In this document: piece by piece, positions 48,873-53,189 of the stretch | Layout: every line of letters starts with the position of its first letter | How positions within the stretch are numbered: the first letter of the stretch is position 1 | Source: Pseudomonadota bacterium | GTDB lineage: Bacteria > Pseudomonadota > Alphaproteobacteria > Micavibrionales > Micavibrionaceae | Assembly (NCBI GenBank): GCA_963204715.1 | Contig: CAUJHK010000076.1 | Span: 1 to 55,421, forward strand | Reading direction: 5' to 3' | Length of the DNA: 55,421 nt | Program-made: the position numbers and the translations under genes | Notes under the pieces: generated by a model | What the model was told of the DNA's origin: nothing | Database searches by the model: none | Seen by the model: only the letters and a program-made list of their open reading frames with translations

Positions 48873-49784
48873 TTATCTTGAAGACGAAGCAACCACAGTC
48901 ACGTTTGTTTTTGGCTTGGTGTGCAGCCACCAGCTATCACGGTTGATGGAGAATATGGGTTTATAGTGTGATACGCGGTCAACATGCGTGACGGTTTTTA
49001 TCTGGTTGTCCAAAAGCACAGGGCCGTTGTCGGTGTACACAACCAAAACAGCATGCGGAACATTTTTTTGTAAGTCCTGCAAGACCAGAATGCGCATGCG
49101 TTCTTCAGGAATACCAAGAGCGCGCAACGCCACATATTTGGTAATCGCGAAGTCTTCGCAATCTCCGCCATTTTGGATAAACTCAATTGGTGAGGCCCAG
49201 TAGTCGCTTTTGCCGTATATGTCTGAATCATTGATATAGGGGATGCGGTTTACTATCTCATTCACGCCCGAGACCACTTTGTTCATGGGAAGGCCGCGCA
49301 GGAATTCAATTTGAGATTTAAATTGGTTCATGGTGTTTTGTCCGCTTTGCGTGTTGAGCGCAGCGTCAAAATGTTCAAACATCTGCGTCCATTTTGTAAA
49401 GGCCGCCAGCGATTTTGATTCCTTTTCGGCAGATCCGAATATTTTGGGGTATTGTCCCATTGGCGCATAGGCGGCCGCCTGCTGAAAGGCCACGCGGGCG
49501 GGTACATCCTTAATGCTTGCCGCTCTGGCCTGCTTGATACTGCCCATGCCCGAGAATGACAAGAAGATGGTCAAGGTTGCCATCATAAAACGCAAGAGGA
49601 ATTGTTCTACAAGAGTTTGTCTGATAACGGTGCTGTCGACAATATCATCATCCACCAAAACCTGGCCAAGCGTTTTGCCTGTATGTTTGGAAACGACCAA
49701 AGCCTGTTGTAATTCATGGGTAGAGATAAAACCGTCAAGGACAAGAAGTTCTCCAAGGCGGTTTTTGTGAAGACGGATTTTCAT
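48873..49784 (-). CDS. MshEN-like domain / TM / BTLCP (LapG-like) transglutaminase-like cysteine protease
   Basis: RLGELLVLDGFISTHELQQAL…TLGQVLVDDDIVDSTVIRQTLVEQ; hydrophobic LLRFMMATLTIFLSFSGMGSI; catalytic GGDCEDFA, PHAVLVV, LLDNQ. Confidence 0.75.
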   Translation of the reverse strand: MKIRLHKNRLGELLVLDGFISTHELQQALVVSKHTGKTLGQVLVDDDIVDSTVIRQTLVEQFLLRFMMATLTIFLSFSGMGSIKQARAASIKDVPARVAFQQAAAYAPMGQYPKIFGSAEKESKSLAAFTKWTQMFEHFDAALNTQSGQNTMNQFKSQIEFLRGLPMNKVVSGVNEIVNRIPYINDSDIYGKSDYWASPIEFIQNGGDCEDFAITKYVALRALGIPEERMRILVLQDLQKNVPHAVLVVYTDNGPVLLDNQIKTVTHVDRVSHYKPIFSINRDSWWLHTKPKTNVTVVASSSR

Positions 49785-49991
49785 TCCCGTCAAAACGCCT
49801 TTGTTCTCTTTCTTATGGCGGCGAGTATCCCTCACGTGCGCAAATCCCCTGACATAGCAACGACTAACACTATAATTCCATCTTCCAGTATGTCGCAAAA
49901 CAGTTTAAGAAATATTAATATCCTTACAAAAAACTGGCATTTTTGGTTAAAAGCTGGTTAATAGAAGCAGGCTTTTTGGGATAGAAAAACA

Positions 49992-51897: not shown

Positions 51898-51973
51898 AAC
51901 GTACTATACGGGGCGTATGATCCTTGCTATCCTGAGCATGGAATTTCAACCAGTAATCACGGGCTTGCCTCTT

Positions 51974-52645
51974 ATGATGTTAAAAAAAATACCTGTTCTT
52001 TTTGTTCTTTGTGGCAGCGTCGGTGCCCTGGCCGCTTGCCAGGTGCCCCACGCTTTTCCATCAGGGTATGTCCATCATGGCAAGGAGTTTAAGTCGGCCA
52101 CGCCCCCGCCGTCCTCAAAATTTACCATGGTACAACGCGCCACCATGGGCGTGGAACAGGCCGAACAGTTCCGCCTTGCGGTGTATAGCCTTGTTGAAAA
52201 CCTGACAACGCGCGCTGGTCTGCCACCCAAGCCTGTTTATGTTTTGCGCGCTGATTCCATGACGCCTTTTTATGCCAACATTGACAATGATGTGCGCGAA
52301 TCTTTGCGGCATATGGGGTATAGACTTTCTGACACGCCAGAAGGTGCCTATATCATGACATATAATGCCATGGCTATAAAACCACCAGAGATGCCAAAAG
52401 GCACGGAACCAGCGCCGATAGTTATATCTGCGCAGGAAAACGCGGCTGTGCCAAACGTTACCATTGGTCTTTTCGTTCATGATGGTGTGGGCGAACAAAG
52501 CAAGCTTTTAACCAAGGAAGAGGGCGACTTTTACATTCGCGGTGCGGATGTTATGAGCATTCCCTTCGCCCAGTTCAAGGATGTAACCAATCCTGCGTTG
52601 ACTTCAGCGGAAGACAGAACAGTGCGCGTCCAGACAACGGAATAA
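51974..52645 (+). CDS. Hypothetical lipoprotein
   Basis: MMLKKIPVLFVLCGSVGALAAC lipobox. Confidence 0.7.
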   Translation: MMLKKIPVLFVLCGSVGALAACQVPHAFPSGYVHHGKEFKSATPPPSSKFTMVQRATMGVEQAEQFRLAVYSLVENLTTRAGLPPKPVYVLRADSMTPFYANIDNDVRESLRHMGYRLSDTPEGAYIMTYNAMAIKPPEMPKGTEPAPIVISAQENAAVPNVTIGLFVHDGVGEQSKLLTKEEGDFYIRGADVMSIPFAQFKDVTNPALTSAEDRTVRVQTTE

Positions 52646-52646
52646 A

Positions 52647-53189
52647 ATGACAAAAGCATCACCCCTTGCAATACTGGCTATTTTTTTGGCGATGCCTTTG
52701 GGGGCATGTGGTGTTTTTGTTGCGGGCGTGGCCGCGCCCAGTATTTTAAAACAGGAAAAAGTAAACGTCACCAACGCATCACATGCCGCGGCAGACATTC
52801 TGGCGCAGCAATCACAGCGCAAGTTTGACCGTCAGGAAAACCTTCTGGTTGTGTCTGATTTGCAGGAAATAGTTGATACCAGCCAAAAAGAGATCATTGA
52901 AAACCCGCAAGTGGGAAAAGTTATTGCGGGCCAGATGCGCACGCGGTTTTTGGAGCTGGGTTATAACATATTTGAAAATAGCAACACTCAAGGCTCAAAA
53001 AATATGGCCGTTGTGACGGGCACATATTCCATCCGTGGCAACAAAATGCAAGTTTATGTGCGCATGACCAACCAAAAAACGGGAGAGGTTATTGGCCTTC
53101 ACGAATATTCTTTGCCTGTGACCTACGATATCAAAAAATATATGACACGGGACAAAAACGGTGTTCCGCCGATGCCGCATATCATATAA
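52647..53189 (+). CDS. FlgO-domain-like lipoprotein
   Basis: Lipobox MPLGAC; NLLVVSDLQEIVDTSQ…VIAGQMRTRFLELGYNIFE…VVTGTYSIRGNKMQVYVRMTNQKTGEVIG. Confidence 0.7.
   Translation: MTKASPLAILAIFLAMPLGACGVFVAGVAAPSILKQEKVNVTNASHAAADILAQQSQRKFDRQENLLVVSDLQEIVDTSQKEIIENPQVGKVIAGQMRTRFLELGYNIFENSNTQGSKNMAVVTGTYSIRGNKMQVYVRMTNQKTGEVIGLHEYSLPVTYDIKKYMTRDKNGVPPMPHII

Follow-up and report, generated by a model that had tools for sequence, protein, structure and literature searches.

A conserved MshEN domain fused to a LapG-type protease in Micavibrionales may link c-di-GMP to adhesin release

The DNA analyzed here, a stretch of 55,421 nucleotides referred to below as the window, comes from a genome of the order Micavibrionales, with Micavibrio sp. 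UBA7689 as the nearest named relative (76% identity). On the minus strand of the window, an open frame of 320 codons (48873..49835) encodes an MshEN domain, a signal peptide or transmembrane (TM) segment, and a LapG-type protease. The original prediction had placed this frame at 48873-49784; the frame and its motifs are exactly as given there, and the true start lies upstream, at a GTG codon (49833-49835, minus strand; stop at 48873-48875) located 17 codons before the ATG chosen previously, which gives a protein of 320 amino acids. A putative ribosome-binding site, AGGGG (49846..49850, minus strand), is found 10 nt before the GTG, and AGGG precedes the equivalent start in several relatives. 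Within the genus, a GTG or TTG start codon is kept at the equivalent place, 25 codons before R9, many relatives have no start codon between the equivalent upstream site and the RLG motif, and position 1, corresponding to the earlier ATG, is Met in only 3 of 62 relatives. Residue numbers are counted here from that earlier Met, and adding 17 converts them to the GTG-start numbering; ranges in the latter are marked as referring to the 320-aa protein. A start downstream of the N-terminal domain, which would have deleted it and had been raised beforehand as an objection to the fusion, is excluded because internal methionines (MM at 67-68) are not conserved and because, over the 82 codons of the N-terminal segment, second-position changes (12-21) are far fewer than third-position changes (51-59); many relatives also have upstream starts alone. 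The codon-position pattern indicates that the MshEN-coding segment is under purifying selection. Neighbors of the protease gene comprise hldE/rfaE (37 of 47 loci), to which it is divergent in most genomes, and genes encoding D-Ala carboxypeptidase, FlgO-like proteins, and pyruvate kinase. The window also holds, at 51917-53189, two small genes encoding secreted or lipoprotein-like products, the second being FlgO-like (PF17680, E=1e-6), and many relatives keep both of them in the neighborhood of the protease gene.

The C-terminal part of the protein is a protease domain of the BTLCP (Peptidase_C93) family (48915..49346, minus strand). It matches Pfam PF06035 (E=9.9e-21, 74.6 bits, cut-off 27), the family profile matches the solved LapG structures 4U65 and 4FGO (E=2e-35 and 1e-32, respectively), and a Foldseek search with the structural model retrieves Legionella LapG 4FGQ (E=4.6e-11). 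We refer to the protein as LapG-type rather than as LapG because its score against the LapG equivalog model NF045674 (97.7 bits) lies below the cut-off of 320. The catalytic Cys is part of the D208-C209-E210-D211 motif (49152..49163, minus strand; conserved in 62/62, 62/62, 61/62, and 62/62 relatives, respectively), in which the flanking calcium-site residues D208 and E210 were assigned by correspondence with DvhG D316/E318 (PMC13090378). H244 (49053..49055, minus strand) and D259 of the LDNQ motif (49008..49010, minus strand) align with the catalytic His and Asp of LapG. The triad C209, H244, D259 is invariant in all 62 relatives, which agrees with the earlier assignment of an intact C/H/D BTLCP protease. 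A second C93 protease lacking MshEN, whose motif reads GGDCED or SGDCED and whose N-terminus is signal-like, is present at L008:2538-3221, L010:733-1452, L015:2443-3165, and L004:2555-3319; in one genus and a related genome it lies in tandem with the fused gene.

The N-terminal domain (R9-Q61; 49602..49760, minus strand) consists of two 24-residue motifs separated by a 5-residue spacer. A Pfam scan of the N-terminus alone was silent for the sequence of the window and gave only weak matches to other families for its relatives, and profile and NCBIfam searches were therefore needed. The NCBIfam model NF053729, which describes the MshE-related c-di-GMP motif, is matched above its cut-off (45 bits vs. 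38) at residues 26-78 of the 320-aa protein, and is matched by 60/60 aligned relatives at E<=0.001. A profile built from 60 N-termini recovers MshE (5HTL, E=7.8e-17) and also PilF/PilB structures. The AF2 model (mean pLDDT 89) superposes on c-di-GMP-bound PilF-GSPIIB at 1.2 A over 53 residues (42% identity, E=0.23, probability 1.00). The two tandem RLG units had been proposed to form an MshEN-like domain, with a fold comparison of the N-terminus suggested as the check, and both the domain identity and the fold are borne out by these matches.

The protease was found in 136 of 142 Micavibrionales genomes, including 97 of the 98 of good quality; alignments begin at residue 1-9 in nearly all of them, and several family-level groups within the order retain the fusion. 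Among the matches listed from searches of the class (385 genomes) and the phylum (399 genomes), which included many proteases, no full-length fusion was found outside the order. Within it, MshEN is absent in two genomes, G103 and G008, where an ordinary signal peptide occurs instead (loci among L223, L224, L225, and L230); G038 carries a frameshift inside MshEN, and the G007 copy runs to the contig end. An alphaproteobacterial frame of 405 amino acids (G476:C259:4168-4512) matches the profile over MshEN and the membrane segment only (positions 10-123, E=5.8e-14).

Published key contacts of MshEN with c-di-GMP are R9, G11, L25, L29, and Q32 in motif I and R38, G40, L54, L58, and Q61 in motif II. 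The copy of the window has R9, G11, L25, L29, G40, I54, L58, and Q61, and lacks Q32, R38, and the turn glycine G47. The original prediction recognized two of these departures in the second unit, R38T and G47D, and missed a third, Q32S. Order-wide, the contacts are conserved at R/K9 (62/62), G11 (62/62), L25 (62/62), L29 (61/62), G40 (62/62), L58 (61/62), and Q61 (62/62), with less conservation at Q32 (40/62; Ser in 17, including the window), position 38 (variable), and G47 (17/62). Just 5 of the 62 relatives satisfy the published relaxed pattern in both motifs. This conservation is the opposite of that in the non-binding XpsE, which has lost G11, L29, R38, G40, L54, L58, and Q61, with substitutions including G11V, L29R, G40L, L58C, and Q61V (PMC5013675). 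The MshEN_N domain on its own binds c-di-GMP with a KD of 0.35 uM (PMC5013675), PilF-GSPIIB binds it tightly without either Arg, having K/L instead, and PilF-GSPII-C binds it with Pro in the first position of motif II (PMC11731258). Taking together the conserved contacts, the deviations in the window, the comparison with XpsE and PilF, and the low count for the relaxed pattern, we consider c-di-GMP binding likely across much of the order, judged from sequence conservation, and uncertain for the copy of the window's own species; binding may be weakened in that lineage, as suspected earlier.

The deviations at Q32, R38, and G47 would also suit a constitutive LapG-type protease, in which MshEN is a leftover, a structural n-region, or a localization tag, and the release of the adhesin depends only on expression or calcium; the two relatives that lost MshEN and kept the protease point the same way. 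We regard this explanation as unlikely, given the invariance of G11, L25, G40, and Q61 and the presence of R/K9 in 62/62 relatives across the order, the purifying selection on the MshEN segment, and the match of all 60 relatives to a curated c-di-GMP-motif model.

MshEN is followed by a signal-peptide-like segment, R65-A88 (49521..49592, minus strand), comprising a charged residue, a hydrophobic core of 15-19 residues, and a (K)xAxA motif. From the family pattern at -3/-1, signal peptidase I is predicted to cut at ARA↓A (49518..49523, minus strand), between A88 and A89. In the alignment of 62 sequences, R/K65 stands just before the hydrophobic core in 62/62, the -1 Ala (A88) is present in 62/62, and the -3 residue is A, S, V, or T in 61 or 62 of the 62 sequences, according to how gaps are treated (one row has R once gaps are removed). 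The segment has the n-h-c layout and small -3/-1 residues of a signal peptidase I substrate. The two MshEN-less relatives retain it as an ordinary signal peptide (...GGAYA↓V and ...TAAKA↓N). The last contact residue of MshEN, Q61, lies four residues before R65, and the domain abuts the n-region of the predicted signal peptide.

The original prediction joined sensor and protease through one TM segment. The fusion architecture itself is conserved order-wide; the segment carries a signal peptidase I signature. Under the mechanism proposed there, the signal would stay uncut, the protease would be anchored by one TM helix, and c-di-GMP would change its activity or reach through a continuous MshEN-TM helix. 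AF2 indeed predicts that the last MshEN helix and the membrane segment form one continuous helix (residues 68-98 of the 320-aa protein), an N-terminal TM helix anchors D. vulgaris DvhG in the membrane (PMC13090378), and NfrB couples MshEN to TM helices (PMC8669469). An anchor, however, needs neither the invariant -1 Ala nor a small -3 residue, its hydrophobic core would be short (15-19 residues after R65), and the MshEN-less relatives have a plain signal peptide at the same place; permanent anchoring therefore appears improbable to us. The signal peptidase I layout and the plain signal peptide of the MshEN-less relatives lead us instead to view the gene product as a precursor whose export signal bears a sensor in the cytosol. 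The hydrophobic segment resembles a signal peptide that can be cleaved, and cleavage may separate the mature protease from the sensor, with no permanent tether between them. A ligand-gated signal peptide, in which c-di-GMP on MshEN would decide whether signal peptidase releases the protease, and a second messenger would control export or processing in cis, is a tentative possibility. The predicted cleavage site lies exactly between both domains, which would also allow one gene to give two products, with a membrane-held MshEN fragment acting after the cut on another partner, independently of the protease. We consider this very unlikely, as no partner is known and the maintenance of the fusion across several family-level groups suggests that the linkage itself matters.

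A candidate substrate is encoded in the same genome. An operon on contig C68 (L146) comprises genes for an RTX adhesin, a LysM protein, an outer-membrane efflux protein (OEP), an LssB ABC transporter, and HlyD. The adhesin (1378 aa) contains T1SS-143 repeats, RTX repeats, and a T1SS C-terminal target domain, and the LssB/LapB-type T1SS ATPase (TIGR03375) scores 923 bits against a cut-off of 693, which is exceeded in 123 of 135 genomes. The LysM gene (L146:13155-14594), located between the adhesin and the outer-membrane channel in this genome, is not at that place in L147-L149 and L151. The linker that follows the N-terminal domain of the adhesin holds two LapG-type sites, KIETAAGDE and NIETAAGNQ, and adhesins of relatives have the linker motif [I/V]E[P/T]AAG[E/D]. 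The motif [T/P/A]AAG occurs in the linker of 70/70 adhesins examined across the order, namely 51/51 recovered by similarity and 19/19 weaker ones, some of which were recovered partly through the linker stretch itself and are not independent. In the 51 adhesins, the first 350 amino acids contain 105 such sites vs. a mean of 5.2 (maximum 14) in shuffles, and the density in the remainder is 0.3 per 1000 aa. The adhesin model shows beta domains and a helix at 180-195, and then a low-confidence linker holding the sites; the LapG/DvhG consensus [T/A/P]A↓AG is likewise preceded by a beta retention domain and a helix (PMC13090378; also PMC6890996). A fold search with the N-terminal domain gave no convincing solved relative, and its putative identity as a retention module is based on position and architecture in the model.

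The closed genomes G046 and G047 encode adhesins of 2871 and 2904 aa with VEPAAGEA, and we infer that GMV0107 of Micavibrio aeruginosavorus ARL-13 is the same gene. GMV0107 is a "hemolysin-related" RTX protein of 2892 aa, encoded upstream of tolC-hlyB-hlyD, with an RNA-Seq expression of 16.9 in the attachment phase vs. 0.3 in the attack phase (PMC3189940). Its size, gene position, and T1SS signal fit the adhesin described here; it was published as hemolysin-like, and the available part of that account does not mention a LapG-type site (PMC3189940). No adhesin lies beside the protease gene, which is outside the adhesin operon. G103 also lacks the usual adhesin beside its T1SS genes, and G065 (98% complete) is without the protease, an over-cut-off LssB transporter match, or an adhesin match, with joint loss being possible.

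A FecR/FG-GAP protein, found with retention_LapA, was considered as a substrate and rejected: its matches are below cut-off, it has no conserved [T/P/A]AAG, and it was not found in the own genome. Many Micavibrionales carry a second T1SS locus (L123:1110-11830 and its equivalents L124, L125, L130, and L136) with the order OEP, LssB, HlyD, and CHASE2/guanylate cyclase, which converges on a large FecR/FG-GAP protein beside a cNMP-EAL gene of Bd1971-like architecture; cyclic-nucleotide and c-di-GMP enzymes thus surround an adhesin-like protein that has no conserved LapG-type site.

The search for lapD and for an RTX adhesin with a TAAG-like site, suggested together with the original prediction, had a divided outcome: the adhesin is present, with IETAAG, and the LapD periplasmic domain (LapD_MoxY_N) was found in 0/135 genomes of the order. 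As the built-in controls were silent, a separate positive control was run for this domain, and it matched at ~1e-45 in two other genomes. GGDEF proteins are present in 135/135 genomes of the order, with seven matches in the own genome.

Because the adhesin carries LapG-type sites, no LapD domain was found, and GGDEF proteins occur everywhere, we propose a Lap adhesin-release system with the c-di-GMP input on the protease. On balance, we favor the view that Micavibrionales have a Lap-type system without LapD, in which this protein is the protease that releases the adhesin, with its c-di-GMP input fused to it and acting in cis; the protease is probably the cutter of the giant surface adhesin in predatory Micavibrio-type bacteria. 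The protein would be made as a cytosolic MshEN domain, followed by the export signal and the LapG-type protease, which would end in the periplasm. There it would cut the N-terminal linker of the type-1-secreted RTX adhesin at [I/V]E[P/T]A↓AG, and the cut would undo the T1SS/TolC anchoring of the adhesin, allowing the cell to let go of its surface or prey. Bound by MshEN at the cytosolic membrane face, adjoining the signal peptide, c-di-GMP would act in cis. By analogy with LapD, at high c-di-GMP the protease would most likely be tethered or unprocessed and the adhesin kept, and at low c-di-GMP it would most likely be released by signal peptidase and the adhesin cut. The earlier idea of one polypeptide combining sensor and protease agrees with an architecture conserved order-wide together with a LapG-type substrate, GGDEF proteins, and no LapD domain found; its permanent tether appears improbable. 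Constitutive cutting by signal peptidase would count against the favored explanation, since it would part the sensor from the protease and cis regulation would be lost. Further points against it are the missing Q32, R38, and G47 in the window, the few relatives that fit the relaxed pattern (5/62), the position of the protease gene outside the adhesin operon, the two MshEN-less relatives, the missed LapG cut-off, and the failure to find a solved relative of the adhesin N-terminus.

The individual parts of this arrangement are known. With the LapG system (LapD, LapA) of Pseudomonas fluorescens, the Micavibrionales proteins share the protease fold, triad, flanking calcium residues, and di-alanine [T/A/P]AAG site, and with the Lap system also the type-1-secreted RTX adhesin and its LssB/LapB-type ABC transporter. 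In contrast, P. fluorescens LapG has an ordinary signal peptide, and its c-di-GMP receptor, LapD, is a separate protein. In Micavibrionales, MshEN is part of the protease polypeptide, searches did not find the periplasmic domain of LapD, and the protease gene is located away from the adhesin operon. The DvhG/DvhD system of Desulfovibrio vulgaris has in common with that of Micavibrionales a LapG-type protease, an N-terminal membrane segment, a non-LapD c-di-GMP input, and an adhesin with a beta retention domain, helix, site, and disordered linker; however, the receptor DvhD is a separate dCache-PAS-HD-GYP protein, and DvhG has no such cytosolic domain (PMC13090378). The MshEN domains of MshE, PilF-GSPIIB, and NfrB share the fold, the two 24-residue motifs, and the 5-residue spacer, and NfrB also couples MshEN to TM helices, but their outputs are ATPases or a glycosyltransferase, compared with a protease in Micavibrionales. 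No protease is listed among MshEN partners in the main text of PMC5013675, and a literature search over the main text of open-access papers returned none naming both Micavibrio and LapG. The arrangement of MshEN, an export signal, and a LapG-type protease appears to be new.

If the proposed mechanism is true, it would account for prey attachment and release in epibiotic predators that use c-di-GMP but not LapD, and the T1SS "hemolysin" of Micavibrio would be reinterpreted as a releasable adhesin. It would also represent a third wiring of c-di-GMP to LapG-type proteolysis, after LapD and DvhD, and make transmembrane sensing, or export control, directly testable in a single small protein.
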